Under the pieces are notes generated by a model that did no database searches, was not told where the DNA came from, and saw nothing but the letters and a program-made list of their open reading frames with translations. 64,000 bases of DNA from Williamsia sp. 1138 (lineage in GTDB: Bacteria > Actinomycetota > Actinomycetes > Mycobacteriales > Mycobacteriaceae), in assembly GCF_002095435.2 (NCBI RefSeq), contig NZ_MJEJ02000039.1, forward strand, positions 62,001 to 126,000. Reading direction: 5' to 3'. Shown piece after piece: positions 14,656 to 29,255 of this stretch. The number at the start of each line of letters is the position of its first letter. The first letter of the stretch is position 1. The position numbers and the translations under genes are program-made.

Positions 14656-15135
14656 TTACAGCCCTCGGGTGATCACGGGGATCGCAGCGTCGACCGCCTG
14701 GGCGATCTCGGCCGCGGCCCTGTCGAACTCTGCGGCCGGCTTGCCCAGAGGATCGGCGATGTCCAGGGATGCAGCGTTGCGATCGGCGCCGGCGGCAGGG
14801 TCGAGGCCGGCCTCGCGGAGAGTGATGATCGTGCGCCAGCGGATCGGCGCCAACTGGCGTGCTGCTGCCCGGTGGTCGCGGGCCAGGCACAGGACCAGGT
14901 CGCTCTCGGCTACGAGGGGAGGGGTGAGAAAGCGGGAAGCAAAGGGAAGTGGATCGAGGCCTAGAGCTCGCAAAGCCCGGGCGCTTTCGGGGTGCATGTC
15001 GTGGCCGTTCATGGCGCGGGTGCCGGCACTGGAGACGGTCCAGCCCAATCCGAGTTCGCTGCTCCGCTGTTCGAGCATGCGCTGGGCAATCGGCGACCGG
15101 CAGATGTTGCCGGTGCACACCACAAGAATTTTCAC
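14656..15135 (-). CDS. Low-molecular-weight protein-tyrosine phosphatase
   Basis: A 159-residue LMW-PTP starting with GTG 15135. The P-loop CTGNICRSPIA (C-x5-R-S, catalytic Cys at residue 7 and Arg at 13) and the general-acid loop LDIADPLGKP (Asp-Pro) are intact. The body follows the bacterial Wzb/PtpA pattern (SSAGTRAMNGHDMHPESARALRALG, LVAESDLVLCLARDHR). Wzb-type enzymes dephosphorylate the tyrosine kinase that controls capsule chain length. A Wzc-like kinase is encoded at 42.4 kb, and the phosphatase copy inside that cluster is decayed (30.75-31.28 kb), so this copy is a candidate to serve the cluster, although PtpA-like roles are also possible. Confidence 0.9.
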   Translation of the reverse strand: MKILVVCTGNICRSPIAQRMLEQRSSELGLGWTVSSAGTRAMNGHDMHPESARALRALGLDPLPFASRFLTPPLVAESDLVLCLARDHRAAARQLAPIRWRTIITLREAGLDPAAGADRNAASLDIADPLGKPAAEFDRAAAEIAQAVDAAIPVITRGL

Positions 15136-15656
15136 CGGTTCAGTATGCGTGCTTCGGCCCCCGAACAGGCGCTCGGTGGCCTGCCGACGTGGCCCAAAGA
15201 TCAGTCGTGCTGTGGTTGAGCAATATTGAGTCGAAAAACTCTCGCCGAGAGTCTTGCGAGCGGCACGAGTGGGTGCTAAAACATTTCCCACAGCGATGTG
15301 GTCGCGCCATCCAGGTGGCGGGGCCAGGACGATGAGGGAGGTGCCTATCGACGTAGCTTGTGCTTCATTGCGCCCGGTCAGATGGTCGTGCCGGGGTATG
15401 CAACTCAGTAGTCCAGTCGCCGCCAGGTGACTGATCCCTATCCATTCGGTGGTGCCGCCCGGACACTCTGGGCGGCACCACCCTTGATTGAGCACCATGC
15501 GGTGGGCGGCCACCGCACATCAGTGCCGACCCCGGCCTGCAGGGTTCGCCGGGCCCAGGCAGAATGCGACGCGGCGAGCGTGCGACGATGTGCCGTAACG
15601 CTAGCTACGCCGGCACCGAACGCCGGCGACAACACACGAACCCGAGGGAGACTTCA
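15136..15656. other. Intergenic region with a perfect hairpin
   Basis: About 520 bases between the phosphatase gene and the first small-peptide gene. No convincing coding frame was seen. It holds a 13-bp perfect stem, GGTGGTGCCGCCC at 15448-15460 and its complement at 15470-15482, with a nine-base loop. There is no T-run on either side, so it may be a regulatory structure as easily as a terminator. Confidence 0.5.
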
Positions 15657-15758
15657 ATGTCGACATACACCGCGATTGACGCCGCTATCGATGGCTTCCT
15701 GAACACCACTCCCTGGGCGATGGACCTCCTGCTCTTCTTCGTCGGCGGAGTGCAGTGA
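15657..15758 (+). CDS. Small acidic amphipathic peptide, 33 residues
   Basis: ATG 15657 is preceded by GAGGGAGA seven bases upstream. The peptide starts MSTYTAIDAAIDGFLNTTPW and ends in a hydrophobic run (MDLLLFFVGGVQ). It has no Lys or Arg and three Asp. At 100 degrees per residue, T5, D8, D12, N16 and D23 fall on one face of a helix, so it should be an amphipathic helix. It has no signal peptide. These traits match the tiny PorA/PorH channel peptides of corynebacteria, which are acidic, lack signal peptides and act in the mycolic-acid outer membrane. That link is inferred from properties, not sequence identity. See also 16037 and 26770. Confidence 0.6.
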   Translation: MSTYTAIDAAIDGFLNTTPWAMDLLLFFVGGVQ

Positions 15759-15896
15759 TCTCTGGGGTCCAGTCCTCGTCTGCGAATCCTGTTGCAGAAG
15801 AGTCGCTAACCTGAGTTTCACCAGGCTTCACCACTGATTGAACGCGGTTGTCTGACCCCTAGCGATGACTAAATCGTCACCGGTCCTCGCAGGAAA

Positions 15897-15933
15897 TGCG
15901 GCGAATTCGAATAATTAATTCGAATTCGCCGCA
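15897..15933. terminator. 16-bp perfect stem, terminator candidate
   Basis: TGCGGCGAATTCGAAT at 15897-15912 pairs exactly with 15918-15933 across the five-base loop AATTA. It lies 138 bases after the stop of the 33-residue peptide gene and 103 bases before the next peptide gene, so it can end transcription of the first or separate the two units. The AT-rich inner part is unusual for this genome. Confidence 0.55.
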
Positions 15934-16036
15934 CCTGTTTCTGAAAGAATCGATATGCTGAGTCGGCACGATGCTTTATTCCGTCCTCAACTCTTATCAT
16001 GGATAAGTATGTTGACATTTAAAGGAGTATGACTTC

Positions 16037-16105
16037 ATGACCTCAGTATTCACTTTGGACATCCTCGAGATCATCGCATTCGTCATCGAGACATTCGGCT
16101 CGTAA
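16037..16105 (+). CDS. Small acidic amphipathic peptide, 22 residues
   Basis: ATG 16037 follows the strong binding site AAAGGAGT by eight bases; stop TAA 16103-16105. The peptide (MTSVFTLDILEIIAF and a seven-residue end) has D8, E11 and E18 within 80 degrees on a helical wheel, with all other faces hydrophobic, and no Lys or Arg. It is followed by a strong terminator hairpin (16148-16190). The combination of a good ribosome site, a short amphipathic product and its own terminator argues that it is a real gene. Possible roles are a PorA/PorH-like channel peptide or a modulin-like secreted peptide. Confidence 0.6.
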   Translation: MTSVFTLDILEIIAFVIETFGS

Positions 16106-16147
16106 CCGAACAGTTCCCGATATAAGTAATCGGGGGGTTTGATCCGC

Positions 16148-16190
16148 TGACCCGGTCTTCCGGAGCTTCGCAGCCCGGGAGACCGGGTCA
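16148..16190 (+). terminator. Terminator hairpin after the 22-residue peptide gene
   Basis: TGACCCGGTCT (16148-16158) and its exact complement (16180-16190) form an 11-bp stem that can extend by five further pairs including one G-T, with an 11-base loop. It is followed by ATTTCGTTT. It also lies downstream of the convergent lipoprotein gene and may serve both. Confidence 0.7.
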
Positions 16191-16354
16191 TTTCGTTTCG
16201 GCAGGACCGACACTTTCCTGGCGCGCTCGCCGTGACTGCCATCCGTCTTTGACCACGAGCAAGAAGAACGCTGAGAACTGCCCAATCGAAGAATTCCGCG
16301 ACTTGGATAGCGGAGGGGTTGTGAGATCCGCCGAGACTGCAGAAATGACGTGGC

Positions 16355-17170
16355 CTACTCGGCCGATGGCTTCGCAGCGGCAGTCTCGGTAGGCGCGACC
16401 GACAAACTCCGAAACCAGAACTCGGTATTGTCTCCGCGCCAGCCAACTCGCCCGGGCCGCAGTTGGGGCGGCGACTGCCGTGCTCCGATATCGATTGCAC
16501 CGAGGACGAGTTCGCCATCCTGACGGACCGCGAGAGATACCGAGTTGTTGTCGATGCCCACGTCCGCTGTGAAATGCGACCATGTGCGTGTCGCCGCCGG
16601 AAGCGGTGCCGTGGCGATGGTGCGGTACACACCCCTGCCGGTGCCCCGGGGAGCCTTGCGCTTCCAGACAATCGTTCCCGAACGCCGGACCAGGGTCACT
16701 GCGTACAGGTCGTCGGGTGAGCGGTACCCGAACAGGAGATGAACACCGTCGTAGTCCTGCTCCGGGGTCCGCTCGGTCTCGGTCGGCTCGTCTGCCCACA
16801 GCTCGCAGCTCATCGAAAAGCGGGCGAAGTCGTCGCGTTTGGACAGAGCTCTCAGGACTGCCGAACCGGTCGCTTTCGACGAGCCCGAGTCCGGTGAATT
16901 GCCGTCTATCGGGCCGCTCCATCCGCACCCGCCGTCGTGGAACAGTGACCCGCTGGTCACGGTCCAGTCCGGTGACGTGACCGCGCCGTCCGTTTCGGAT
17001 CGGCGGAGTGCGTACTCATTGGTCACCAGGCCTCGTCCCGCAGCGAACTTCGGCGCCCAGCGGGTGTCGGCAGGTGATCGTTGACCTCCACCGCATGCGA
17101 CGAGACCCCCGGCCGCGATGGCCCCTAGCCCCAGGCCCAAAGCTCGTCGTCGAGACAGGTGCTGCGGCAT
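16355..17170 (-). CDS. Putative lipoprotein of the polysaccharide operon
   Basis: Start ATG 17170 overlaps the stop of the deacetylase gene by one base (TGATG). The 271-residue product has a twin-Arg-like leader (SRRRALGLGLGAIAAGG) ending in a lipobox (GLVACGG, Cys about 26), so it is exported and lipid-anchored. The mature part reads like a concanavalin/LamG-type beta-sandwich: DDFARFSMSCELWAD, YDGVHLLFGYRSPDDLYAVTLVRR, HFTADVGIDNNSVSLAVRQDGELV, with a closing WFRSLSV. A similar fold occurs at the end of the deacetylase encoded upstream. It probably binds or positions the exported glycan. The enzymatic role, if any, is unknown. Confidence 0.75.
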   Translation of the reverse strand: MPQHLSRRRALGLGLGAIAAGGLVACGGGQRSPADTRWAPKFAAGRGLVTNEYALRRSETDGAVTSPDWTVTSGSLFHDGGCGWSGPIDGNSPDSGSSKATGSAVLRALSKRDDFARFSMSCELWADEPTETERTPEQDYDGVHLLFGYRSPDDLYAVTLVRRSGTIVWKRKAPRGTGRGVYRTIATAPLPAATRTWSHFTADVGIDNNSVSLAVRQDGELVLGAIDIGARQSPPQLRPGRVGWRGDNTEFWFRSLSVAPTETAAAKPSAE

Positions 17171-18792
17171 CAGCGGGGTTCTATCTGCAGATCCGTCCAC
17201 GCCGGGAACGGTTGCGCCGCCGCGGTCCTGCTGCCGATCACGCTGAAGCCACCGCGTCCGTCACGAGAGGGCACCGTGGCCACCACCGCGCCGTCCACCC
17301 AGATCCTGGTCTCTTGCGGCGACACCGTGACCTTGACGCGGTGGGTGGCACTGTCGCGGAGCACCGTGCCGGCCAGTGTTCGGTTGGCGCTGTCGGTGAC
17401 GGTGGCGCGGTCCCGGCTGACCATCAGCCGCACCGATTGATCGGTACCGGAGCCGGTGCGCACCCGCAACCCGGTGGACATGCCGCGGCGGATGTCGACG
17501 GCGGTACCGGTCAGCGTGTAGTTGGTCCACTGGTCGGTGCGTTGTGCTGCCCACAGCGCCTCGGTGTAGGTCAGCGTGTCCGCATCGAATCGAACGATGC
17601 CCGAGGCCAATTCACCGTCATCGATCGGACCTCGGAAGTAGCGTCCGGGTTCGAGCCAGCTGCTGTCGACGGCAACGGGGTCCATCGCGGTGACGGGCAG
17701 GGTCTGGGCTCCGCGCATGCGGTCGAACAGTTGACGCTCGGTGTCCCCGCGCTTGATCTCCAGCCGTTCGAGCGGGGTGACCTGTTCGGCGGAGACCGGT
17801 GCCGGCGCGATCGCGTGGCTCTGATTGGTGAAGGCGGCGGCATAGTGATCGCGGATGACCTGCGACGAGATCTCGACGGCAGAGTTGCTGATCCGCGAGC
17901 TCGGAGCCGAGAACGGATAGGAGAACAGTTGAGGTGCAGGGAGGTCGTGGGCAGCGAACTTCCGTTCAGACGCCTCGACGTCGAGGAGCATGCGTTCGCG
18001 GAACTGTGCGTCGTCTTCGACCTGGCCGTTGACTGTCTCGTGGGCGGCCATGGTCGGGAGTAGTTGCCCGTTCTCGGTGGTGCGGTAGTGCAGATCGTCG
18101 GTATGGGATTGGAAGGACCAGCGTCCGGAGTCGTGCATCCGGTTGATCTGTTGCCAGGTCAGGTAGTACGGCTGCCGAGTGCTCACCGATGATGTGATCA
18201 GGAAGCTGACGGCGCTGAAGCCGTAGTCGTCGAGGATGGTGTCGGCGTACTTGTAGAGGCCGGAGGTGCCGTCGTCGAAGGTGATCACCACTGATTGCTT
18301 CGGTGGGGTGGAGGCCCCCAACAGGTAGTCGACGTACTGTTTGCCGGTCAAGGTGCGGTAGCCGGCGGTGTGGAGCATCTTCATCTGCGCGGCAAAGGCT
18401 TCCGGGGTGATGACGTACTCGCCCGCGTCGGGGTCGGTGCTTATGTCGTGGTAGGTCAGCACCAGGGGAGCCGCGCCGAATCCTGCTCCGAGACGGCCGG
18501 TGTTCTCGGCGGCCCACCCTGCGTACAAGGCGGTGTCTTCGGAGGTGAAGGTGGGCGCCGCGGTGTCTTCACGGAAGCCGATGTACTTCTGCCACCACCA
18601 GATACCAACTGCCGAGGCGACCAGTGACACCACGACACCGATCGCCAGAACCCGGACGATGAGCGCTGTGAACCGGTGCCCGACGTGCCCCCGGCGGGTC
18701 GGTGGGCCGAGCTCGGGCATCAGCGCCGCTCCGCGTGACCGGGTGATGTGCGCTTGCGCGGTCGCGGCGCGATGTCGTTCGAGCAACGTCAT
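17170..18792 (-). CDS. PgaB/IcaB-like polysaccharide deacetylase with C-terminal beta-sandwich
   Basis: A 540-residue membrane-anchored protein. Residues 1-45 are cytoplasmic, a transmembrane segment spans about 46-67, then a NodB-homology domain (about 105-340) and a LamG-like domain (about 375-540: LEPGRYFRGPIDDGELASG, YTLTGTAVDIRRGM, RIWVDGAVVATV). Catalytic motifs are LTYHDI, VVITFDDGTSGLY (the TFDD acid/metal motif) and FQSHTDDLHY (metal-binding His, with the second His in DLH). This is the layout of enzymes that remove acetyl groups from a beta-1,6- or beta-1,4-linked N-acetylhexosamine polymer during export (IcaB/PgaB). Start ATG 18792 overlaps the preceding 35-residue gene by four bases (ATGA). 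Confidence 0.85.
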   Translation of the reverse strand: MTLLERHRAATAQAHITRSRGAALMPELGPPTRRGHVGHRFTALIVRVLAIGVVVSLVASAVGIWWWQKYIGFREDTAAPTFTSEDTALYAGWAAENTGRLGAGFGAAPLVLTYHDISTDPDAGEYVITPEAFAAQMKMLHTAGYRTLTGKQYVDYLLGASTPPKQSVVITFDDGTSGLYKYADTILDDYGFSAVSFLITSSVSTRQPYYLTWQQINRMHDSGRWSFQSHTDDLHYRTTENGQLLPTMAAHETVNGQVEDDAQFRERMLLDVEASERKFAAHDLPAPQLFSYPFSAPSSRISNSAVEISSQVIRDHYAAAFTNQSHAIAPAPVSAEQVTPLERLEIKRGDTERQLFDRMRGAQTLPVTAMDPVAVDSSWLEPGRYFRGPIDDGELASGIVRFDADTLTYTEALWAAQRTDQWTNYTLTGTAVDIRRGMSTGLRVRTGSGTDQSVRLMVSRDRATVTDSANRTLAGTVLRDSATHRVKVTVSPQETRIWVDGAVVATVPSRDGRGGFSVIGSRTAAAQPFPAWTDLQIEPR

Positions 18793-18896
18793 AGGAGCGT
18801 TCCCCGGCTGAGCACAAAGATGTAGACCACGACGGCCGACGCGATGAACGCGACACTGAACAGTGCGCGTAAGAGCTTCCTGGACTTCAGATTCAC
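18789..18896 (-). CDS. 35-residue single-pass membrane peptide, synthase accessory candidate
   Basis: GTG 18896 overlaps the stop of the glycosyltransferase gene (GTGA), and its own stop overlaps the deacetylase start (ATGA). The product has a basic N-terminus (VNLKSRKLLRALF) and one transmembrane helix (about residues 12-30), then RGTLL. The double overlap is strong evidence that it is translated. In PNAG operons the equivalent position is filled by the small membrane subunit IcaD/PgaD (about 100-140 residues), which assists the synthase; this peptide may be a minimal version. No sequence identity is claimed. Confidence 0.65.
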   Translation of the reverse strand: MNLKSRKLLRALFSVAFIASAVVVYIFVLSRGTLL

Positions 18897-20398
18897 AGTG
18901 ACCTCGACCAGATGTTGCGTCGAATCGTGAGCAGTGAGTAGGGGAGCAGCCAGGACAGACAGAGTGTGGAGATGAGTCCCATCAGCGGCCGGTACCGCCA
19001 GCGGGTCGAGTTGGGGTTGTCGACGGCGAACGCCACGGCCCAGGCGCAGCCTTTGATGAAGATGCCACCCAGGTAGAGGGCGGTCAGCAGCCACAGTCCG
19101 TTGACGGGTGCCCAGATCATGTGCCGGATCGCCATCAGTGGCGCGGCCGCGACCCAGACAGCGTGCCCGTAGTAGAGGACGGACGGCTGAAGCCCTCTGC
19201 GCCACATGAATGTTCCGGAGAAGCACAGGTTCCGGATGAAGCTCTTCTTCCAGCGCACCTGTTGCTTGAAGAAGGCGCGGGGTGACTCGGGCACCACGGT
19301 CCATACCTTCGCCGACCGTACGTAGCCGACCCGCCACTTACGCTCGGGGTAGTCGATCGCGGCGACAAAATGGGATTCCGGGTACTGCTCTTTGAGCGCC
19401 CGGCCCCGCCACTTCTGGCCCAGGACGTATCCGGTGAGTTGGCGGTCGGTCGCGAATTTGAACTCGCCGCCAAGAAAGCGGTCATTGGCCCACGCCGGCA
19501 GGTAGTTCCAGATGGCGTCGCGGCGGAACACCGCAAGCGGCCCGGACACGCAGGTCACCGAACCGAGGGAGGCTTCGGCGGCCTTGACGACGCGGAACGA
19601 TCCTTCGTACCAGGTGTCCTGGATCTTGGTCAGCAGGGTGGAGTCGGCGTTGAGCGCGCGCGCATGTCCCGACACCGCACCCAGGTCCGCCTCGGACACC
19701 AGGGCGGCGACGCAGCGGCGCAACGCATCCGGTGCCAGGACGCAGTCGGAGTCGGTGAAGGCGATCACCTCGCCCGTGGCGACCTCGGCGCCGCGAACCA
19801 ACGCGTTCTTCTTCCCGACGTTGCGCTCGAGTTCGATCAGCGTGAAGTTCAGCTCGGTGGTGAGGTGTCGCAAGATCTCGGTGGTGCCATCGGTGGAGGC
19901 GTCGTCGACGACGATGACCTCGAGGCCGGGATAGTCAGACTCGACCATCGACCGCACGCACCGCTCGATCACGTCGCGTTCGTCTTTGATCGCCACGAGG
20001 AAGCTCACGGTGGGCACTGCCGGCAGGGGCGGAAAACTGAGCGGCGCAACGTGGTTGGAGTGCCGCGACTCGGCCGGGTCTTCGTACCGTGCGTAGGCGA
20101 GGACGAAGGCGTAGATGGTCGACGACAACACTGCGAACCCGTACAACATGATCCACGGATCGAAGATTATCTCGGGAAACTGCCGGGCCAGCAGAGCGAA
20201 CAGCGGTGTCAGCGCGAGTACCGCAATCAGGAACTTGGCGGCTCTGCGGACGTGTGGGTCCCAGTTGTCGAACCATCGACGTCGCGGACGCGGTGCGCCC
20301 CACGTGTCTGCATCTATCTGCGCAGCTGACCCAGTGGGCGGCGTCCATGTCTGTACCGGCTCGGTCCGCGATGACCGAGCCGAGTGCTGAATAACCAT
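18893..20398 (-). CDS. Processive family-2 glycosyltransferase (hyaluronan/PNAG synthase type)
   Basis: A 501-residue membrane enzyme. Two N-terminal transmembrane segments (about 52-70 and 82-102) precede a GT-A catalytic domain (about 125-380) with VSFLVAIKDERDVIERC, VIVVDDASTDGTTE, FTDSDCVL (DxD-like metal site), SVTCVSGPLAVFRRD, and the processivity motif QQVRW (FFKQQVRWKKSF). Two or more C-terminal helices follow (about 412-470). These motifs define enzymes that both polymerise and export linear glycans such as hyaluronan, chitin or poly-N-acetylglucosamine. The deacetylase downstream argues for an N-acetylhexosamine-containing product, and the sugar dehydrogenase upstream for a uronic acid component. 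Confidence 0.9.
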   Translation of the reverse strand: MVIQHSARSSRTEPVQTWTPPTGSAAQIDADTWGAPRPRRRWFDNWDPHVRRAAKFLIAVLALTPLFALLARQFPEIIFDPWIMLYGFAVLSSTIYAFVLAYARYEDPAESRHSNHVAPLSFPPLPAVPTVSFLVAIKDERDVIERCVRSMVESDYPGLEVIVVDDASTDGTTEILRHLTTELNFTLIELERNVGKKNALVRGAEVATGEVIAFTDSDCVLAPDALRRCVAALVSEADLGAVSGHARALNADSTLLTKIQDTWYEGSFRVVKAAEASLGSVTCVSGPLAVFRRDAIWNYLPAWANDRFLGGEFKFATDRQLTGYVLGQKWRGRALKEQYPESHFVAAIDYPERKWRVGYVRSAKVWTVVPESPRAFFKQQVRWKKSFIRNLCFSGTFMWRRGLQPSVLYYGHAVWVAAAPLMAIRHMIWAPVNGLWLLTALYLGGIFIKGCAWAVAFAVDNPNSTRWRYRPLMGLISTLCLSWLLPYSLLTIRRNIWSRSL

Positions 20399-20401
20399 CT
20401 G

Positions 20402-21679
20402 TCAGTGCATATCCGGGATGAGGCGAGGCTCGGAACGAAAGGTCATGTCCAGCACCTGCGGCCGACCGGTGTCGTGACCCGAGGTCCACCACTCGGTCTC
20501 ACCCGGATGGAGGGTGTGCACGAGGATCAGGTCTGCCGACTCGGCGGCCTCGCTCGACGAGGTCGGAACCCGTTTGCCGTCAATGGTGATGGCAGGGACA
20601 AAGGCGTCCGAGTAGGTGACCATGGCACCGGCGCGAGTCAGGTCGGTGATGATTTCCAGGGCGGGGGACTCACGCACGTCGGCGACACCGGACTTGTAGG
20701 CAACGCCGACGATGTGCACGCGGGAGCCGGCCATCGGCCGACCCGCATCGGCGAGCCGGGCGCGGATCTTGCTCACGATCGCCGACGGGCGTTGCACGAT
20801 GCCGGCCATCGCCGCCTCGGTGATCGGGGCGCTGCCCCTGGTACGCCGCAACTGCCACAGCAGGTAGTGGGGATCGCAGGGGATGCAGTGCCCGCCGACG
20901 CCGGGCCCCGGTGTGAACCGCATGAAGCCGTACGGCTTCGTCGCCGCGGCGTCGATGATCTCGGTGATCGGCAGCCCCATCGACTCGGCGACCTCCGCGA
21001 ACTCATTGGCGAAGGCGATGTTGACGGCCCGGAAGGTGTTTTCGAGCAGCTTTGTCATCTCGGCGACCTCGGGGGAGGACACCTCGTGCAACTCGGCAGC
21101 GGTGGCGGCCAGAGTCTCCGCGGCGTGATGGGTACACGACGGTGTGACGCCACCGATCACTCGCGGGGTGGCCGTGGGAGAGTGACCGCTGACACCAGGG
21201 TCGATGCGCTCAGGTGAGAAGGCAACGAACACATCCTGGCCCACCACGAAGCCGCGATCAGTCAACGGACCCACCAGCAGTTCACGGGTGCAACCAACGT
21301 AGGTCGTTGACGTCAGGATGATGCTCTGACCACTTCTTGCCTGCGCGACAACGGTGTTGCAGGCCGAGTGCAGGGCCGTCAGTTCAGGCGCCTGGCTCTC
21401 GTCCACGGGAGTGGGTACGCACACGATGACGGTGTCGGCCTTACTGATCCGGTTCGCATCGACGGTGAGTTCGAGAAGTCCCGAGGCCAGGTCGGTACGC
21501 AACCGGGTGAGATCGGCCGGTGGGAGGTCGATGTTCGCTTCGGCGATGTTGGTGAGGCGTTCGACGGCGACGTCGAAGCCGATCACCCGGTGGCCGGCCG
21601 CAACCAACGACATTGCCGTCGGCACGCCGACATATCCCAATCCGACTACCGCAACCACAGCATTGCCCGAACGGTTCAT
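20402..21679 (-). CDS. Nucleotide-sugar 6-dehydrogenase (UDP-GlcNAc/ManNAc dehydrogenase type)
   Basis: A 425-residue member of the UDP-glucose/GDP-mannose dehydrogenase family. The Rossmann motif VVGLGYVGVP is near the start, the second NAD-binding region is FSPERIDPG, and the active-site block GPGVGGHCIPCDPHYLLW carries the catalytic Cys. A C-terminal UDP-binding domain begins at VHIVGVAYKSGVADVRESP. The HCIPCDPHYL form is typical of the WecC/WbpA/TviB branch, which oxidises UDP-N-acetylhexosamines, rather than the UDP-glucose branch represented at 31.3 kb. ATG 21679 is favoured over 21694 because GGAAGG lies upstream. It heads the minus-strand polysaccharide operon; three bases separate its stop from the synthase start. 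Confidence 0.88.
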   Translation of the reverse strand: MNRSGNAVVAVVGLGYVGVPTAMSLVAAGHRVIGFDVAVERLTNIAEANIDLPPADLTRLRTDLASGLLELTVDANRISKADTVIVCVPTPVDESQAPELTALHSACNTVVAQARSGQSIILTSTTYVGCTRELLVGPLTDRGFVVGQDVFVAFSPERIDPGVSGHSPTATPRVIGGVTPSCTHHAAETLAATAAELHEVSSPEVAEMTKLLENTFRAVNIAFANEFAEVAESMGLPITEIIDAAATKPYGFMRFTPGPGVGGHCIPCDPHYLLWQLRRTRGSAPITEAAMAGIVQRPSAIVSKIRARLADAGRPMAGSRVHIVGVAYKSGVADVRESPALEIITDLTRAGAMVTYSDAFVPAITIDGKRVPTSSSEAAESADLILVHTLHPGETEWWTSGHDTGRPQVLDMTFRSEPRLIPDMH

Positions 21680-22368
21680 TACTTTGCCTTCCATAATCGC
21701 CGGATCTATTCGGGGCAGGGCGTCGCGCAGTGCGATGCAATCCGGTGGCGGAGTTTCGATCTGACTGAACGTTCGAGGAAAAATGTCGCTCAGATCAGTT
21801 CAGACGGTGACCCCGCACAGCTGGTGTTCGCGCAGTCGTACGCGACTTCCTGCCTAGATCCGTCGCAAACTGTACTCGAAACAGGCGAAAAACCCCGCTC
21901 GAGAAAAGAATTGCCGCCGATTCATCTGTTGGGTCCACGGGCTGGCCTGGCTGGGTTCGCACGGTTTCCGAAACCCAAGAGTTTTCTATTTGACACAACA
22001 CTCATTGAAATAAGAATGGAGATGAAGTTGCAGACAATTCGCAATTCCGGGGTCGACGGCCGGGGTGGAGGCGATTTTGGTGAGACGTAAGCGAACTTAT
22101 GACCGTCACGGTCGCCGATCCTTGAACGTGCCGGCGCGCCGACCCCCAGCTGACCGTCGACGCGTCCTAGGTTCTGGACTCAGGTTCTAGTTAATTGGCC
22201 TTCGTTCGCTGAGAACCCAGTCATCGAAACAGTGCGAGGAAGGCTGTGTGCAGGTCGTTCCCACCATCTGAGACGAACCGTTCCTGGCGGTAGGCGTGAT
22301 TCGTCAGTGCCGTTGTCCAGCAATGACATAGACGATCAAAAGTGCCCTAAAAGGCAGGTCCGGTTCGA
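21680..22368. other. Upstream region of the polysaccharide operon, no gene seen
   Basis: About 690 bases between the dehydrogenase start and the next gene, both on the minus strand. No frame with coding character was seen on either strand. TTGACA occurs at 21990-21995 on the plus strand, but there is no good -10 at normal spacing. The promoter for the dehydrogenase operon probably lies here. The AT-richer part is around 21970-22030. Confidence 0.4.
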
Positions 22369-23010
22369 CTACCGGCACTCGCGAGATTCGAGCGTCTCGA
22401 AATACGGCGGCAGCCGTTTGCCGTCGAATGGCTCGAACCAGTTGTCGAGTGTGCCCGCGGTTCCGCTGCGGCGGCCCGCGCCGTTATCGCTCGCGTCAGG
22501 GCGGTAGAGATGGTCGTGATCGGCGCCTGCCAGCAACTCCCGTGCGAGTGTGGACCGCCAGTCGTCCGCCAGGTCGAGGCCGTAGGTGTCTTTGTAGAAC
22601 TGGACGTGGTCGAACAGCACGCGAATGAGTAACTCTTGGGCGACGCAGTCCGGTGGTGACCACTCCCGGGTCAGCCGGGCGAACAGGTCGGCTGCCGCGA
22701 CTATCAGCTTCTGTATGAATCGAAAGTCGTATTCGTGCGCGAAGCGTCTGGGTAGGAAGGGCAGGATGGTTCCGTCTGTGGTCAGCGACACTCCGGGATC
22801 GGCCATGGACCTGCCTGCAAGGTCTTCGAAGAGCCCATCCATCACGTAGGAGGAAGCAACCCACAACGCGGCAGACAGGGCGTCAGCCTGCCGCTGCTGG
22901 ACCGCCCGGGCGACGGGGTCGCCCTCCTCAGGGTCGACGCCGAGGAGCTCAGGTGGGATACCGGAGACCCGGCGGGCTGTGTGCATGAACGTGGTCGTCG
23001 TTTCACCCAT
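22369..23010 (-). CDS. Hypothetical soluble protein
   Basis: A 213-residue protein. ATG 23010 is chosen because a GGGGGG-rich site lies about six bases upstream; the frame is open to 23049. It is rich in Asp/Arg, has no signal peptide or membrane segment, and a helical central part (QADALSAALWVASSYVMDGL, FDFRFIQKLIVAAADLFARL, CVAQELLIRVLFDHVQFYKD). No domain recognised. It stands alone, with long gaps on both sides. Confidence 0.6.
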   Translation of the reverse strand: MGETTTTFMHTARRVSGIPPELLGVDPEEGDPVARAVQQRQADALSAALWVASSYVMDGLFEDLAGRSMADPGVSLTTDGTILPFLPRRFAHEYDFRFIQKLIVAAADLFARLTREWSPPDCVAQELLIRVLFDHVQFYKDTYGLDLADDWRSTLARELLAGADHDHLYRPDASDNGAGRRSGTAGTLDNWFEPFDGKRLPPYFETLESRECR

Positions 23011-23258
23011 TCGAGGCCCCCCAAGAGGATAAGTCGGGTTACGGCGCACGTATCTCGGCGCATAGAAATTCTAATCAAAGGCAGTCTGCCCAAGGCTAGA
23101 TACTGCTAAACGCGTCGATAATTAGGGAAGGGGCGACCGATCAATTTAATGAGCCACAACAACGTCCGGGGCTGGACGCATGGATTTCTTACTCGCAGTA
23201 ACGAGGCGAGCGGCGCCGTCTGGTGGGAAGACTGGCGTGTCCCTTGTTGCCGGCGACG

Positions 23259-23489
23259 TCAGGCACGCAGCGACTGCGGGATGTCCACAGGAGCGGCGGA
23301 TTCACGCAATTCTGCTGAGAGGGAATCGTTTTCGCGATTGAAGTTGCTCGACAATGCGATGACGGAAGGCACTTCGGCATAAATCTGCTCTCGCGCATCA
23401 GCGCGCTTGACCATCCGACCGATTGCCAACGCGACAGCAACAGACACCAGTATCCAGACGACGGCCCCGATGCCGCTCAACCACCACAT
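23259..23489 (-). CDS. Small membrane protein, paralogue of the 23869 gene
   Basis: A 76-residue protein if started at ATG 23489 (an upstream ATG at 23507 is possible). It opens MWWLSGIGAVVWILVSVAVA, one transmembrane helix, then GRMVKRADAREQ and a Ser/Glu-rich soluble tail. The first 35 residues match the protein encoded divergently at 23869 (MWWxxxGAVxW, V/A-rich helix, IGRxxxxAD), so the two are paralogues. Function unknown; the basic ring after the helix suggests the tail lies in the cytoplasm. Confidence 0.6.
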   Translation of the reverse strand: MWWLSGIGAVVWILVSVAVALAIGRMVKRADAREQIYAEVPSVIALSSNFNRENDSLSAELRESAAPVDIPQSLRA

Positions 23490-23660
23490 TTGCAGAATTA
23501 TGACCATTGAGAACTGGAAAAGAAAGCCAGATCTAGGAATTGATTGTTACGGTCATAAATTGACCGGGAATGTCCGAATTCTAGGCATAGTGATTTCCGG
23601 AAGCGGCGATGAAGCTGCAGAAAATGCCCGCCCGGCGGAAGTCGTCTCAGGCCTCGGGCA

Positions 23661-23676
23661 GAAGTGACGTCACTTC
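23661..23676. promoter_or_regulatory. Perfect 16-bp palindrome in a divergent intergenic region
   Basis: GAAGTGACGTCACTTC is its own reverse complement. It sits in the 379-base gap between two divergent paralogous membrane protein genes, 172 bases from one start and 193 from the other, so it is nearly central and could be a shared operator. No other palindrome of this length was seen in the gap. Confidence 0.4.
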
Positions 23677-23868
23677 ACGCGTCGACTTCCACACCGGTGA
23701 GGCGCGGGCGTCCAGTCGGAGGTCATTCCCGACGTCTGCTCTGACGGTCGTTGCATTGGCGATGTGTCAGATCTCTTGCCGGAAACTGCGCACACTTAAT
23801 CAATCATGTGACCGACACGTAATCCTTTCGAGGCTGTTTGATGTCCTTTTCTGTCCATACTGAATGAC

Positions 23869-24024
23869 ATGTGGTGGATCGCTATTGGTGCCGTTCTCTG
23901 GGTACTCGTGGCGATGGTGGGTGCAATGCTCATCGGACGGGTGATCAGCCACGCCGATCTCGAGGACGAAGCGGTTGCGCTCCGCCGACAAAATCGAGAG
24001 TCGAATCTCCGTCTTCTTCGCTGA
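23869..24024 (+). CDS. Small membrane protein, paralogue of the 23259 gene
   Basis: A 51-residue protein from ATG 23869 to TGA 24022-24024. It has a single transmembrane helix at about residues 3-24 (WWIAIGAVLWVLVAMVGAML) followed by GRVISHADLEDEAVALRRQN, a short charged helix. Its start and the boundary after the helix align with the protein encoded at 23259-23489. No ribosome binding site is obvious (CTGAATGAC upstream), so a weakly translated or leader-coupled gene is possible. Function unknown. Confidence 0.6.
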   Translation: MWWIAIGAVLWVLVAMVGAMLIGRVISHADLEDEAVALRRQNRESNLRLLR

Positions 24025-24245
24025 CAATCGAAACCGCACTTGAGTGCCGGGGCCTCACTGAGGTTCATGCGAACGGACGACGTCGCCGAGGTTTCACGTA
24101 TCAGTCACTGCATAGTGTTGTTGCACAACCATCTTGACTTCAGGCGCGCGTGCTGAATGGTGGCTACCCCGATATGCGAATCTGGTCGCAGTGACGGACA
24201 ATCGTTCGAGACGCCCACTGAGGGTCCATCGAAAAGTCGGGGAGT

Positions 24246-25289
24246 ATGAATAAAGTCATCCGTGTAGCTTTCTGTTCGGCGTTGGCCGCGTGCCTCGCCG
24301 TGGGCGCGCCGACGGTGGGTGCCGCACCGGTGGCGCCGGACTCGAGCGCCACCTCCAGCGGTGACATCGGATACTGGGATCAACAGTTGGCTCAGCGGGA
24401 TCGATCGATATTGAACCGGGCTGCGGTGGGAACAGAACGCGAATCTGTGGTGCAGGTGTACTCGAGTGCGATGAACCGCTCGGTGCCTGTGCATATTCGG
24501 CGGCCCAAGGACACGGCAACGCCGGCCCCGGTTCTGTACCTGCTCGATGGTGGCGGCAGGTATGCGTCCACCGACATCGCCCAGTACCTCGACGATGCTC
24601 ACGTCAACATCGTGTCGCCCGCAGGCGGCATCAACGCCTACTGGACGGACTGGAAGAGTCCTGATCCCGATGTGGGTATCGCCAAGTGGGAAACGTTCAT
24701 GACCAAGGAACTCCCACCGGTGATCGACAACATGCTCGGGACCACCGGGCGTAACGCGGTGGCGGGGATGTCGCGCGTAGGAACGTCAGCCTTGCAGTTA
24801 GCGATCGCGAAACCTGGCCTCTACGACGGTGTTGCCGCCTACAGCGCGTGTGCCAACGTCAGCGACCCAGTAGGGCAGGCGTTGATCCGAATCACCATGA
24901 ACCACGTCGGGGTGGGAAACCCGGAAAACATGTACGGGCCGTCCAACGATCCGGAATGGGCCGCTCACGATCCGTGGGTTCATGCCGAACGTTTGCGGGG
25001 CACGGCAGTCTTCTTGTCGGCGGGCAGCGGCCTGCCGGGCCAATACGATCGACTGAACAACTCCTACATCGGTGGCGATATAGCCAAGTTGGCGGACCAG
25101 ATCATCGCTGGCGGCGCGATCGAGGCGGTGACCAACGGGTGCACCCGTGCTTTCGCGATCCGTTTGACTGCCCTGGGTATGCGTCCGACCACGCACTTCC
25201 GGCTGACGGGTACTCACGCCTGGAGTTACTGGAACGATGATTTCCACGCGTCGTGGCCGATGCTGTCGAGTTCGCTGGGCTTGGGATGA
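24246..25289 (+). CDS. Secreted mycolyltransferase-like esterase (antigen 85 family)
   Basis: A 347-residue exported alpha/beta-hydrolase. Sec signal peptide: residues 1-27 (VIRVAFCSALAACLAVGAPTVGA-AP). The antigen 85 layout is visible: VLYLLDGGGRYASTDI (oxyanion region), VNIVSPAGG, the nucleophile elbow AGMSRVGTSALQLAIAKP (Ser in GMSRVG, compare GLSMAAS in antigen 85), and the catalytic His in TGTHAWSYWNDDF. Such enzymes transfer mycolic acids between trehalose monomycolate, trehalose dimycolate and arabinogalactan in the cell envelope. The presence of the gene indicates that the organism is a mycolic-acid producer. GGGGAG precedes ATG 24246. Confidence 0.88.
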   Translation: MNKVIRVAFCSALAACLAVGAPTVGAAPVAPDSSATSSGDIGYWDQQLAQRDRSILNRAAVGTERESVVQVYSSAMNRSVPVHIRRPKDTATPAPVLYLLDGGGRYASTDIAQYLDDAHVNIVSPAGGINAYWTDWKSPDPDVGIAKWETFMTKELPPVIDNMLGTTGRNAVAGMSRVGTSALQLAIAKPGLYDGVAAYSACANVSDPVGQALIRITMNHVGVGNPENMYGPSNDPEWAAHDPWVHAERLRGTAVFLSAGSGLPGQYDRLNNSYIGGDIAKLADQIIAGGAIEAVTNGCTRAFAIRLTALGMRPTTHFRLTGTHAWSYWNDDFHASWPMLSSSLGLG

Positions 25290-25337
25290 AGCTCCGCGGT
25301 CAGCGGATGAGGCCGACCAGCCTTACGATTAGTACCA

Positions 25338-25904
25338 ATGAAATGGGCTCGAAGGTTACTGATCGCAGTCTGTGTTGTTCTCGTCGTTTTGCCTGTGCTG
25401 CTGGGAGTTTCGGGTTACCTGCTGTTCACCAAGGGTCACATGGATCCAGTGACCAGGGCAGATGCGATTGTTGTTCTCGGTGGTGAACACGACGGCCGTG
25501 AAGCATACGGACTGGACCTGGCCACACGGGGATATGCCGACACCGTCTTACTCTCGAACCCGTACTGGTCCGGTGACAAGGTCATGAAGAAGGCCTGCGC
25601 TGCCTCGACCGCTGAAGTAGAGGTCGTCTGCTTCAAGCCGCAACCCGGAACCACTCGTGGTGAGGCAATCTTCACCCAGCAGATGGCAGAACGGTTCGGA
25701 TGGGACCACGTCATCGTCATCAGCTGGCGGTATCACCTCTTGCGGGCACGCTTCGTTTTCTCCGAGTGCTTCACGGGGAGGGTGACGATGACTGGAGTTC
25801 CCCGCGCCTATGACTTCTCACTGGCGAAGTGGGAGAGCGTGTATGCCTACCAGGTGGTGGGCTTTGTGAAGGCAGCGGTGGTGGGGTGCGATCGTTTTCT
25901 GTAG
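25338..25904 (+). CDS. YdcF/SanA-like DUF218 membrane protein
   Basis: A 188-residue protein with an N-terminal membrane anchor (about 7-29) and a DUF218 domain: ADAIVVLGGEHDGREAYGLDLATRGYADTVLLSNP, then PQPGTTRGEAIFTQQMAERFGWDHVIVISWRYHLLRARFVF. The VVLGG and late R-H/R-A-R residues are the conserved positions. DUF218 proteins (YdcF, SanA, ElyC) act at the cell envelope, and some are tied to peptidoglycan or vancomycin phenotypes, but no reaction is established. It starts 48 bases after the mycolyltransferase stop, possibly in the same transcript. Confidence 0.85.
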   Translation: MKWARRLLIAVCVVLVVLPVLLGVSGYLLFTKGHMDPVTRADAIVVLGGEHDGREAYGLDLATRGYADTVLLSNPYWSGDKVMKKACAASTAEVEVVCFKPQPGTTRGEAIFTQQMAERFGWDHVIVISWRYHLLRARFVFSECFTGRVTMTGVPRAYDFSLAKWESVYAYQVVGFVKAAVVGCDRFL

Positions 25905-25916
25905 CGCGCAGTCGTT

Positions 25917-26288
25917 TCATGTGAGCTTGCCGTACACCGTGTAAACGATGTGACTGATCAAGTAAGCGTCAACCGCTGCCAGTGCAGAAATCGCGACATT
26001 TTGTAGGACGGCCACGAAGATCGCACCCACTCCCTGTACGGAGATCCGGCGTGGGAGGGTCGACATCACCGCAAGCGACGAGCTGGCCCCCGAAAATCCG
26101 ATCATTGCGGTGGTGACCGACCAGGATGTTTGCGACTCGCCGGCCACGGCGACGGCGAGGAGCGCCGCACTGAACGCGTTCAGCGCGAGGACTATCCGCT
26201 GGTCCCGCCACGGCAACAACGTGAGGGCACAGTAGGCGAAGGCGCCGCCTGCGGCGCCACCCAGCGTGACTTGGAGAAAAGGACTCAT
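25917..26288 (-). CDS. CrcB/Fluc-like membrane protein, subunit 2
   Basis: A 123-residue, four-helix membrane protein. The fold pattern of fluoride channels is visible: GGAAGGAFAYCALTLLP (first helix), LALNAFSAALLAV (second helix with the conserved Asn), MIGFSGASSSLAVMSTL (where the break and Phe-box would be), and a fourth helix. The usual TTFSTF segment reads SSSLAVMST, so the Phe box is not conserved. Overlaps the preceding paralogue by four bases (ATGA). In actinobacteria, CrcB often occurs as two unlike subunits forming a heterodimer; this pair fits that arrangement. Function is uncertain because of the lost residues. Confidence 0.6.
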   Translation of the reverse strand: MSPFLQVTLGGAAGGAFAYCALTLLPWRDQRIVLALNAFSAALLAVAVAGESQTSWSVTTAMIGFSGASSSLAVMSTLPRRISVQGVGAIFVAVLQNVAISALAAVDAYLISHIVYTVYGKLT

Positions 26289-26653
26289 CGAGCGCCGAGT
26301 CGGGCGGTGAGCCGGCCCGTGGCGATCGCGCCGGTGGCGACGAAAACTGTTGCGACGAGATACGCGACGGACATCCAGACGTGAGTGGATGTTGTGGCAA
26401 CAACGACCGCGACGCTAAGAGCGCCTAGTCCGCTTGAGAAGCCGAGCGCGAACCAGCGCATAGTTCGTCGATACCCGCCCGTCGACAACGAGCCGAGTAC
26501 AACGCCGGATACACCGATTGCGATCAGACTGACAGCGAAGTCGTGTCGAGGACCGGGATACCACTCATCGAGCAGCAACCGTGCTCCGGCGCCCAAAGCA
26601 CCGCCCGTTGCGGCGCAAATGAGTTCGATGCCGCGGAAGGCGCGCTGGGGCAT
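26285..26653 (-). CDS. CrcB/Fluc-like membrane protein, subunit 1
   Basis: A 122-residue, four-helix membrane protein. The opening AATGGALGAGARLLL matches the CrcB first helix well, and GFSSGLGALS corresponds to the GFCGGLTTFS region. In the second helix, the segment equivalent to TLLVNLLGSFLLG reads SLIAIGVSGVVLG, so the conserved Asn is absent, and the Phe box is also lost. The partner gene (25917-26288) keeps the Asn. The proteins may form a heterodimer that exports fluoride, or have another role. Confidence 0.6.
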   Translation of the reverse strand: MPQRAFRGIELICAATGGALGAGARLLLDEWYPGPRHDFAVSLIAIGVSGVVLGSLSTGGYRRTMRWFALGFSSGLGALSVAVVVATTSTHVWMSVAYLVATVFVATGAIATGRLTARLGAR

Positions 26654-26734
26654 AGCACCAGTTTAGGTGCGGAAGCGTAGTCGAGCAGCCGGCGGCGTTG
26701 GGGGATTGGTCACTCCACCACCGTCAAGACGGGT

Positions 26735-26761
26735 ACGGACCCCGGAGACCCCGGGGTCCGT
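26735..26761. terminator. 11-bp perfect hairpin downstream of a peptide gene
   Basis: ACGGACCCCGG (26735-26745) and its exact complement (26751-26761) enclose the five-base loop AGACC. On the minus strand it starts nine bases after the stop of the 30-residue peptide gene, so it is the likely terminator for it. There is no long T-run. Confidence 0.65.
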
Positions 26762-26769
26762 CAATGCTT

Positions 26770-26862
26770 TTATCCGCCCGAGCTACCTGCAAACAGGCTG
26801 GTGACAACGAATTGAATGATCTGACCAAAAACTTCAATGAACCCGAACAGCTCTGATGACAT
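26770..26862 (-). CDS. Small acidic amphipathic peptide, 30 residues
   Basis: ATG 26862 follows AAAGGA (CGAAAGGATCGAGC) at normal spacing; TAA at 26772-26770. The product begins MSSELFGFIEVFGQIIQFVV and ends SLFAGSSGG. It has two Glu, no Lys or Arg, and no signal peptide. E10, Q14, Q17 and T21 fall within 60 degrees on a helical wheel, giving an amphipathic helix. With its own terminator hairpin, it looks like a monocistronic gene. It shares its overall properties, but not clear sequence identity, with the peptides at 15657 and 16037 and with PorA/PorH channel peptides. Confidence 0.6.
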   Translation of the reverse strand: MSSELFGFIEVFGQIIQFVVTSLFAGSSGG

Positions 26863-27520
26863 GCTCGATCCTTTCGACATTTATATTTACAACCGATGGA
26901 CTTCGGTCCGACCATGTACAGAATGCCTCAAGCACATTAATCGGTGGTCTTTTTGGACAATACTAAGGCCCAACCGCGGCAGACAGCGAAATGTACCAGC
27001 GGGGCGGTGGAATAGCTCGTTCAGGGCCGGGATGCCCGACACGATGCGGTTGGCCTAGCCGCTCCGGGCGGTCGGCAAGGCTCAGGGCTCGGCCTCGGTC
27101 ATTGTTGTCACCTGGGTCGCAGTCTGTACGGACCCTTGTCACCCGCTCATCCGCGAACAACACGTAGATCATAAATACAAATGGCCTTCCGTCGGCAATG
27201 GGAGTGGGACTGCGTTTCGGGAGGATCGTTGATTTGAGCGTTCTGCATGTGCGTAGCTTCCTCGCCCCGTATATGGTTGATCCGGCCGTGACCCCAGCGG
27301 TAGCTCAGCGGCGACTCCTTCTCGATGTATACATGGTTGATCTTCCAGTCGTCGGAAAGCCGCCTATTTGACGGCTGCGGCCGTGCAGTCGAACACTGAC
27401 TTAAATGTATGAGGAAGCCGCTGCAGCAGAGATGTTTTCGGTCGGCCTGAACATTGAGTTGGAGGCCGGAGGGTACCTCGGAACCAAGCCAACCGTGATC
27501 TTAGGAGGCATGATCTAGCC
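26863..27520. other. Intergenic region, possible gene remnant at 27204-27371
   Basis: About 660 bases between a minus-strand peptide gene and the SGNH gene. A 55-codon frame from GTG 27204 to TGA 27371 (VGLRFGRIVDLSVLHVRSF, then APYMVDPAV) has some coding character but no ribosome site and no recognised family; it could be a remnant. The motif ATGGTTGAT occurs twice within it. The rest shows nothing. AGGAGG at about 27503 probably serves the SGNH gene. Confidence 0.35.
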
Positions 27521-28276
27521 ATGACTGGTGGACGAAATTCTCGGAGCCTGCGAGGAAAGATTGCGATCGGAACTACAGTTCTGGGACTAGTGATAGTGCT
27601 CTTTGCGGGCGGGTTCGCGTACGACCAGTCACGAAAAAACGCACCAGTCCCAGCTACCGCCTCGGATTTTACATTCACTGAGCCGCCATTGCCTGACGAC
27701 GGCGTGGTCCGGCTAGCGGTTATTGGAGACGCGGTCTCAAAAGGTACGCCCAAGAACACGACCGTTTGGCCCGAGATTGTTGCCCATGAGCGAGGCTGGG
27801 AGCTGACCAACGCGGCCGGGGGTGGCGGTGGCTATGTCAACGGACTCCCGAAACACCGTGCTTTCGCGGATAAACTGAACGAGGCGGTCCGAAACACCCC
27901 CGAGATCGTGGTTGTAGCTGGTAGCCGCAATGACTCTAACGCGGCCCCTGCAGTAGTTGCGAAGGAAGCCCTTGCCCTGCTGACAGACCTAACCACGCGG
28001 TTACCCGAGAGCCAAGTGATCGTAGTTGGGCCGATATGGGACTACAAAAAGCCAACGCCAGAAGTGCTAGCTGTGAACGAGTCGGTGCGACAGGCTGCAA
28101 ACCAGCTAGGCCTGACGTTCGTGGACGCGATCGCGGCAAACTGGCTGTCAACGCCGGGCTTGCTCCAGGGCGACACTGCTCACCCGACCGATGCAGGTCA
28201 GAAGGTTATTGCTGAGCAGATGAATGCGGTGCTGCCCGAAATAGAAACTCCGGCGCCACCAGTTGAGGCCAAGTAG
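27521..28276 (+). CDS. SGNH/GDSL-like membrane-anchored protein, catalytic Ser replaced
   Basis: A 251-residue protein with a basic N-terminus, a membrane anchor at about residues 14-34 and a flavodoxin-like SGNH domain (about 62-235). Block I reads VIGDAVSKG, where GDS is expected, so the nucleophilic Ser seems to be Ala (a Ser lies two residues later). Block III is present as GSRND and block V as DTAHPTDAG (Asp-x-x-His). Family members remove or transfer acyl groups on lipids and polysaccharides. Without the Ser, this protein may only bind a glycan, or act with the shifted Ser. It lies just upstream of the exopolysaccharide locus. AGGAGG is about 13 bases upstream. Confidence 0.75.
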   Translation: MTGGRNSRSLRGKIAIGTTVLGLVIVLFAGGFAYDQSRKNAPVPATASDFTFTEPPLPDDGVVRLAVIGDAVSKGTPKNTTVWPEIVAHERGWELTNAAGGGGGYVNGLPKHRAFADKLNEAVRNTPEIVVVAGSRNDSNAAPAVVAKEALALLTDLTTRLPESQVIVVGPIWDYKKPTPEVLAVNESVRQAANQLGLTFVDAIAANWLSTPGLLQGDTAHPTDAGQKVIAEQMNAVLPEIETPAPPVEAK

Positions 28277-29255
28277 GTTAGCGGCGCAAAGCTTGCGTGT
28301 CATGATCTGAGCTGAGTCGCCACACAGCTGTGGGCCGCCTACGAAGCATTTGTCGAGGCTCCAGAGCTGGCAGCTTCGACGGACTTGCGAGTACCAGGTG
28401 TTCGCAGTTCTTCGAGGTCGCACCTGCCGCGCCACGGTCGACCCGAAGTCGGCACGTCCGCGGCTGGGTTACACATCGTCCAGCTCAGCTCCCGTGGCTT
28501 ACTGATTCTTAGAAGCCGTTTGGTTTCGAGCCTGGTCATGCACCTTCGTTGAGCTGACCCAGGGGTGGACGTTGGCCGGCGGCCTCCAGATAGACATAAC
28601 TCCAGTTGTGGGCTATAAATGATCGTGACGATCATCGCCAGCGTCGAGACTGTGCGCCTGATGCTCCGATCTTGGTGAGATGTGCCATGCCTCGGATCCG
28701 TTGATGGCGACATTTTGCCAACGTCGGTATAGATAGTGACTACGCCGAATTGCGTGGGGCTTAATCGTCGGCGAGTCGCGAAAGCATTGATTCTGTGCTG
28801 TGAGTTAGGGGCCACATCGCGGTTTCTTTTGCGAAACCTAATTGAAACCCAGGGCCGTGACTTGTCAAATCGCTACTTAGGCGTCGCGCACGTGCTGATC
28901 CCGCTCAGTCACCAGGCGTGTTGCGCGGCAGACGGTTTCGTAGCGCGTAACCTCCTCTTCGCATCCGCGTTACGGTGTTCTCTTGGCGGACATGTTGCGA
29001 AGTAAGTGATGTAAACCACAAAACTATAATTAAGGTTATGTAATACTAAAATTGAGAAATATCATTGACTCACTTGGGTCGCGAAACGATTGTGAAGGCG
29101 CTACTCTTCCCTTATTCGGCTAAATCGAAACCAAATAAGACGGGGTCGCGGCCACTTTATAGTTATATTTCGACGCCCTGCCTGACGCTGTGGTCGGGAA
29201 TCGGCCATCGCTCGCACGCTGAGCGCTGGCCGCCTGGAGCGTCGGGGAGGAAGAG
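28277..29255. other. Long leader region before the exopolysaccharide operon
   Basis: Almost 1 kb without a convincing gene; frames on both strands lack coding character. GC falls around 28980-29070. A good promoter-operator candidate lies at 28591-28635 (separate entry), which would give a leader of about 630 bases before the ATG at 29256. No known riboswitch was recognised. Confidence 0.45.
28591..28635 (+). promoter_or_regulatory. Promoter candidate with overlapping palindrome upstream of the EPS operon
   Basis: TAGACA at 28591-28596 and TATAAA at 28614-28619 are spaced by 17 bases, a good sigma-70-type match in a GC-rich genome. ATGATCG and CGATCAT (28619-28625 and 28629-28635, three-base centre) form a palindrome beginning at the last base of the -10, where a repressor would block initiation. 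Confidence 0.4.

Follow-up and report, generated by a model that had tools for sequence, protein, structure and literature searches.

Three tiny acidic peptide genes of Williamsia and their relatives beside Cmt1-type mycoloyltransferase genes: candidate mycomembrane micropeptides

A 64,000-nucleotide stretch of the 6.08 Mb genome of Williamsia sp. 1138 (contig NZ_MJEJ02000039.1, positions 62,001 to 126,000; hereafter the window) contains three very small genes, here called A, B1 and P0003, that encode acidic peptides. Because their frames are conserved in relatives, they are well supported, as judged from conservation, as real and unrecognised genes. Such peptides lie next to genes for Cmt1-type mycoloyltransferases more often than chance predicts, in Williamsia and beyond. 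We consider it probable that they are mycoloylated mycomembrane micropeptides that act like PorA, PorH and ProtX, outside Corynebacterium. The peptides, of 22-33 residues, would be exported without a signal peptide, a Cmt1/MytC-type mycoloyltransferase would put a mycolic acid on a serine (or threonine), and the short helices would oligomerise in the mycomembrane, as is thought for PorA, PorH and ProtX in Corynebacterium glutamicum. The most economical reading is that a Cmt1-type enzyme mycoloylates the peptides and that their helices assemble in the mycomembrane. Pore formation is its weakest step, and the peptides are perhaps minute outer-membrane pores. That they are expressed, exported, mycoloylated, placed in the mycomembrane and able to form pores is in each case inferred.

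An earlier reading of the window, made from the sequence alone (the original prediction), had proposed the three genes, and the frames translate exactly as it claimed (Table 1). The good ribosome site ascribed to each gene was found, as was the peptide composition: none contains Lys or Arg, and acidic residues number three in A, three in B1 and two in P0003. A rule asking for an ATG start, a ribosome site, 20-55 residues, an acidic and hydrophobic product and no Lys or Arg returned exactly A, B1 and P0003 from the 64 kb, against a mean of 0.12 (maximum 1) in 40 second-order Markov shuffles; an earlier rule and an earlier shuffle gave a mean of 0.27 such open reading frames (ORFs). Strong hairpins had also been claimed beside the genes. 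All three hairpins are present and two have marked fold scores, whereas the one beside P0003 stands out least; it was terminator-like in the scan on the + strand only, with no T run after the stem on the gene's own strand (-). For the hairpin 3' of B1 the scan lists the inner stem, at 16173-16188. A scan for sigma-70-type promoters around the peptide genes found none, and Rfam gave nothing at gathering score over window positions 15000-27500.

Conservation of the frames in related genomes, on which the original prediction had staked itself, was found. Across three relatives (G005, G002 and G007; genomes are given by our handles) the mean identity to the window is 91% for A, 93% for B1 and 93% for P0003, and in the least conserved flanks it is 34% for the stretch separating A from B1, 47% beyond B1 and 30% 5' of P0003. 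Some flanks are better kept, with for example 78% immediately 5' of the ribosome site of B1 and 82% across the hairpin of P0003. Over bases 15640-15656, the stretch with the ribosome site of A, mean identity to the window is 86% in three relatives, and AAGGAG also precedes the B1 genes of loci L007-L009. The ratio of nonsynonymous to synonymous polymorphism (pN/pS) is 0.36 for A (9 sequences, with the gene of G001 and the shorter type of second copy excluded), 0.34 for B1 (5 sequences) and 0.036 for P0003 (4 sequences).

Each peptide belongs to a family. Among 251 genomes searched, family A has 13 copies, found in all nine Williamsia genomes, and one distant relative in G023; this count excludes a partial match in G005 (E 0.17). 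Family B, with B1 as a subtype, has 23 copies, again in all nine. Family E, which includes P0003, has 20 copies in eight of the nine, the P0003 subtype itself being present in four. Outside Williamsia, family E occurs in two genomes of genus g9, G201 at E about 1e-11 and G130 at about 1e-10; weaker partial matches in other genera were treated as chance. Searched with a degenerate DNA pattern drawn from family A, genome contigs gave ten matches, nine of them titled Williamsia and one Kitasatospora arboriphila NRRL B-24581, and viral contigs gave none. By tblastn, neither P0003 nor one g23 peptide had a match in plasmids. The contig titled Kitasatospora (L088) holds a Williamsia-type family A gene, and its record is probably mislabelled.

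The mycolyltransferase said to lie in the window is present and of Cmt1 type. Compared with structures in PDB, it matches Cmt1 best (E 9e-54), followed by PS1 (5e-30) and antigen 85C (6e-24), and the Ser, Glu and His of the Cmt1 triad are kept in an alignment judged by eye. A relative encoded near menB, beside family B paralogues, behaves alike (Cmt1 4e-79, PS1 7e-49, antigen 85A 5e-31). By sequence comparison, both enzymes are far nearer to Cmt1/MytC than to antigen 85. The window enzyme gene lies 1.5 kb from P0003, and a PF00756 domain is found 1.66-1.76 kb from P0003 in all four genomes that have this subtype. PorA and PorH are described as substrates of Cmt1/MytC, and PorA as mycoloylated by it in vitro (PMC11927696).

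This linkage is more than local. Taking families A, B, E and C together, Williamsia has 62 copies, of which 16 have a PF00756 gene no more than 2 kb away, where 0.55 would be expected; the 16 come from only two orthologous arrangements, so independent events are few. The 62 copies leave out family D and the 39-residue peptides of G000 (the window's own genome) and G007, and PF00756 matches weaker than about E 1e-22 were left out of the count. For other genera we made a blind count with one small-ORF rule only, R2, fixed before the count and shaped in its form by loci seen earlier; in early stages, before R2, the small-ORF rules had been loosened and tightened. The blind set comprised 40 further Cmt1-like matches taken in list order and 40 control stretches from the same contigs. 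An R2 peptide gene occurs within 1.5 kb at nine of the 40 Cmt1-like loci (13 ORFs) and at none of the 40 controls (Fisher 0.0012), and shuffling the flanks of the same 40 loci gave a mean of 0.75 R2 loci (maximum 2). The looser rule R1 gave 20 of 40 loci (29 ORFs) versus nine of 40 controls (9 ORFs). The nine R2 loci fall in four genera (g9, g12, g20 and g23); g23 accounts for five of them and a single g12 genome for two, so they are not fully independent. Controls were taken 20 kb upstream on the contig, except for three at about 30 kb and one at 20 kb downstream, and were scored over their full length (159 kb), the test loci over their flanks only (119 kb). One batch 1 locus, L281, was shortened by a contig end; two matches in batch 2 were skipped, in G112 at 2900163 (beside another match) and in G134 at 1235 (near a contig end). 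R2 misses likely members, for example g20 and g24 peptides in L284, L287, L316, L326 and L327.

Loci read with prior knowledge give further examples. Of the 21 top non-Williamsia loci, previously seen, six pass R2. In G140 (g6), read for a peptide match, the 4 kb upstream of a Cmt1-like gene holds four R2 peptides. The Cmt1-like match at that locus (L235, 9795-10722) spans two reading frames, a broken gene or an assembly error. In G134 (g23), three genes for small acidic peptides and two Cmt1-like genes occupy alternating positions on a single strand (L318); this locus is also counted among the blind nine. Further Cmt1-like matches lie close to L318 on the same contig. Among plasmids, eight of 19 records with a Cmt1-like gene were read, and R2 peptides were present in one of the eight regions, from Corynebacterium crudilactis pCRULAC1. 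There (L356, 3822-4049) a Cmt1-like gene is immediately followed by peptides of 32 and 37 residues, both ending SS, the second of which fails R2 owing to a His; neither is in the PLSDB gene table, which is itself incomplete. In two of the Rhodococcus plasmid regions (L352, 4469-4609; L354, 4454-4594), an 'LRA-13 beta-lactamase' of PLSDB is a 141-base ORF and likely a spurious resistance call.

Table 1. Positions of the peptide genes, their ribosome sites and hairpins, and the mycoloyltransferase gene in the window
Feature	Position	Strand	Details
Family A gene	15657..15758	+	33 aa, MSTYTAIDAAIDGFLNTTPWAMDLLLFFVGGVQ
Ribosome site of family A gene	15644..15651	+	GAGGGAGA, 5 nt before start
Hairpin between A and B1 genes	15897..15933	+	16-pair stem, z -6.3; likely terminator
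Family B gene, subtype B1	16037..16105	+	22 aa, MTSVFTLDILEIIAFVIETFGS
Ribosome site of B1 gene	16022..16027	+	AAGGAG, 9 nt before start
Hairpin 3' of B1	16149..16189	+	fold z -4.8; likely B1 terminator
Cmt1-type mycoloyltransferase gene	24246..25289	+	347 aa; PF00756; Ser/Glu/His aligned with Cmt1
Hairpin downstream of P0003	26735..26761	no strand	11-pair stem, z -1.8 in 66-nt fold
Family E gene P0003	26770..26862	-	30 aa, MSSELFGFIEVFGQIIQFVVTSLFAGSSGG
Ribosome site of P0003	26868..26875	-	GAAAGGAT, 5 nt before start

Predicted structures and sequence ends suggest where a mycolic acid could be attached. AlphaFold2 models family A as two helices (residues 6-17 and 19-31; predicted local distance difference test score, pLDDT, 84.8; predicted template modelling score, pTM, low at 0.43) and P0003 as a single helix (3-25) with a non-helical tail, GSSGG (pLDDT 82.2, pTM low at 0.37); B1, at 22 residues, is below the length for this method. 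The acidic residues were originally predicted to cluster on one helical face; amphipathicity exceeds that of shuffles for B1 (p 0.02) and P0003 (p 0.001), and 10 of 22 representative peptides are amphipathic beyond shuffles at 0.05. GS, SG or SS occurs in the last eight residues of 14 of the 22 representatives versus 5.2 expected, some of them having been picked by R2, which favours this motif. Gly-Ser near the C-terminus is present in all 11 aligned family E rows, and B1 ends Gly-Ser. All 12 aligned family A rows have T or S at column 17.

We suggest the C-terminal Gly-Ser of P0003 and B1 as candidate acceptor sites, comparable with the near-C-terminal sites in C. glutamicum of PorH, modified at S56 of 57 (PMC12632848), and ProtX, mycoloylated at S37 of 38 (PMC5310785). 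For family A the candidate would be Thr/Ser-17, at the turn between the predicted helices, much as in C. glutamicum PorA two helices are joined by a short linker that contains S15 (PMC11927696). Modification sites are described as falling in Ser/Gly-rich flexible stretches, with Ser about nine times as frequent as Thr (PMC11066868). The A and B1 genes are 278 bp apart in the window, an A-B pair in G003 is 140 bp apart, and the two peptides may form a hetero-oligomer.

The closest comparison is with PorA/PorH of Corynebacterium, an O-mycoloylated hetero-oligomeric channel whose subunits are described as helical, below 60 residues and free of a signal peptide, with two genes together. The window peptides are likewise below 60 residues and, as judged from their composition, have no signal peptide: with no basic residues they lack a Sec-type N-region. 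They differ in being shorter, in having several paralogues per genome and in lying, in some cases, beside Cmt1-type genes. ProtX (cg2875) is described as similarly tiny and without a signal sequence, with its penultimate Ser mycoloylated; P0003, B1 and many relatives also have Ser near the C-terminus, a likeness drawn from the description of ProtX. PorACj (40 residues) and PorACur (37 residues), homo-oligomeric, are each taken to be a single small helical peptide that forms a pore; both are longer than the window peptides, and their locus is groEL2-ppk2. The PorA/PorH gene pair, too, is placed between groEL2 and ppk2. No GroEL or polyphosphate kinase was found among 20 neighbouring ORFs scanned in our case. 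The MspA porins (PF09203) are reported as channels in other mycolata, and those of Rhodococcus are placed in this family (PMC9233653); unlike the window peptides, they are described as beta-barrels of about 200 residues with a signal peptide. The three peptides have no match to PF09203 or any other Pfam family, nor to NCBIfam, and the same searches with ten relatives were also without a match; P0003 had none in PDB. The original label of PorA/PorH-like is supported for the working mode (size, no signal peptide, predicted helices, candidate Ser/Thr, Cmt1 linkage), and the likeness to PorA, PorH and ProtX would lie in the apparent way of working; membership in the PorA/PorH family finds no support in the PorA comparison, the domain models or the locus.

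Several observations weigh against a PorA/PorH-like role. No sequence homology to PorA was detected with a PorA sequence as query. Family A as a single helix is not significantly amphipathic (p 0.16). Candidate acceptor residues are not universal, as the G023 relative of family A has Gly at column 17 (aligned by eye) and one B1 paralogue, in G007, ends AA. Linkage is partial: no PF00756 gene lies within 2 kb of 46 of the 62 Williamsia copies, the entire family A (13 copies) among them, 31 of the 40 Cmt1-like loci have no R2 peptide, G001 keeps a Cmt1-like orthologue (76%) but the 1.5 kb on either side show no such peptide, and none of seven Rhodococcus plasmid loci with a Cmt1-like gene has an R2 peptide. 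At 22 residues, B1 is below the published channel peptides that we found, PorACur with 37 residues being called the smallest in the title of its report. Finally, two MspA-type porin genes already exist elsewhere in the genome.

The last of these points also favours the strongest alternative, that the peptides serve the mycomembrane as mycoloylated lipopeptides with a structural or tethering role and form no pore. This is a serious possibility, if on balance unlikely. It draws on all the support for the PorA/PorH-like reading save the pore step, and ProtX is itself described as mycoloylated and of unknown function (PMC5310785). On the other side, the A-B pairing and the amphipathic helices of B1 and P0003 recall the PorA/PorH pair.

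A different fate, release into the medium through a dedicated ABC (ATP-binding cassette) transporter, would make them secreted modulin- or bacteriocin-like amphipathic peptides. Phenol-soluble modulins are short amphipathic peptides without a signal, exported by an ABC transporter. The likeness to them, by description, lies in those traits, to which the multi-copy, small and partly amphipathic nature of our peptides may be added, and the difference in that modulins are not known for any mycoloyltransferase linkage. A small-ORF census around the family copies found more acidic peptides, some near an exporter. Beside menB in G008, G006 and G002 is a cluster of B2, a gene of Cmt1 type, the peptides C and D, and a pair of genes for an ABC exporter, and C/D-type peptides adjoin this heterodimeric exporter on the same strand in Williamsia. 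G003 and G004 have the same peptides and enzymes as the menB-linked cluster, and G005 has C and D with the enzymes. G000 has B2, a Cmt1-type enzyme, a 39-residue peptide and the exporter pair, and in G007 a similar 39-residue peptide lies beside a Cmt1-type enzyme. In G014 (g7) a 50-residue MGS-peptide, the exporter pair and a Cmt1-type gene occur together. Other peptides adjoin four of six g23 exporter loci among the 21 exporter loci read, and a seventh locus, in G184, has one too. In G005, an ABC1 match (contig C11, 932643-934463) has a TAG inside the aligned stretch, which may start upstream of the true start.

The exporter was considered as a general peptide-specific partner, and this was not upheld. 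The exporter type is widespread, with a match in 208 of the 251 genomes, and usually stands without such peptides, which lie beside it in five of the 21 loci. Enrichment beside Cmt1-type enzymes would moreover be unexpected for a released peptide. The modulin alternative, raised in the original prediction, is weakened by this linkage, and we regard secretion of this kind as unlikely. For the PorA/PorH-like reading, the linked heterodimeric exporter in one paralogue cluster is a candidate for the export route of the signal-less peptides.

Proximity to Cmt1-type genes and, in the window, to glycan genes could also mean that the peptides are small regulatory or accessory subunits of mycoloyltransferases or neighbouring glycan enzymes. 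We think this quite improbable, given several unlike peptides per enzyme and many copies far from any such enzyme. That these very short frames beside hairpins are leader peptides or chance ORFs is barely credible in view of their low pN/pS, the conservation of start and stop codons, the paralogues and the presence throughout the genus, with a hairpin after each gene as in free-standing genes.

More broadly, and only tentatively, we propose that the mycolata, beyond Corynebacterium alone, possess a large, fast-evolving and mostly unannotated set of O-mycoloylated micropeptides, which would include the smallest known porin-like subunits, many of them in cassettes with genes for dedicated Cmt1-type enzymes and some with a linked heterodimeric ABC exporter as export route. 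Among the matches listed in a search of open-access literature, where coverage of subscription journals is thin, no title or abstract described such peptides in Williamsia, Rhodococcus or Gordonia. Protein mycoloylation outside Corynebacterium was described in 2017 as an open matter (PMC5310785), and the peptide-Cmt1 cassettes make it directly testable in Williamsia and relatives. How PorA, PorH and ProtX cross the plasma membrane was called unclear in 2025 (PMC12632848), and the clusters with an ABC exporter offer a named candidate for this step in signal-less peptides. If the proposal is true, a class of mycomembrane proteins may be escaping genome annotation owing to their small size.

Several other genes surround the peptides in the window. 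The stretches at 17170-21694 and 27521-32608 encode a polysaccharide deacetylase, a family 2 glycosyltransferase (GT2), two UDP-glucose/GDP-mannose dehydrogenases, a GDSL lipase-like protein and a sugar transferase. Farther along, a 5966-residue ORF (43899-61799, + strand) encodes a large non-ribosomal peptide synthetase whose first 3000 residues hold three condensation and three AMP-binding stretches, and it is followed by a DUF4012 protein at 61610-63580.

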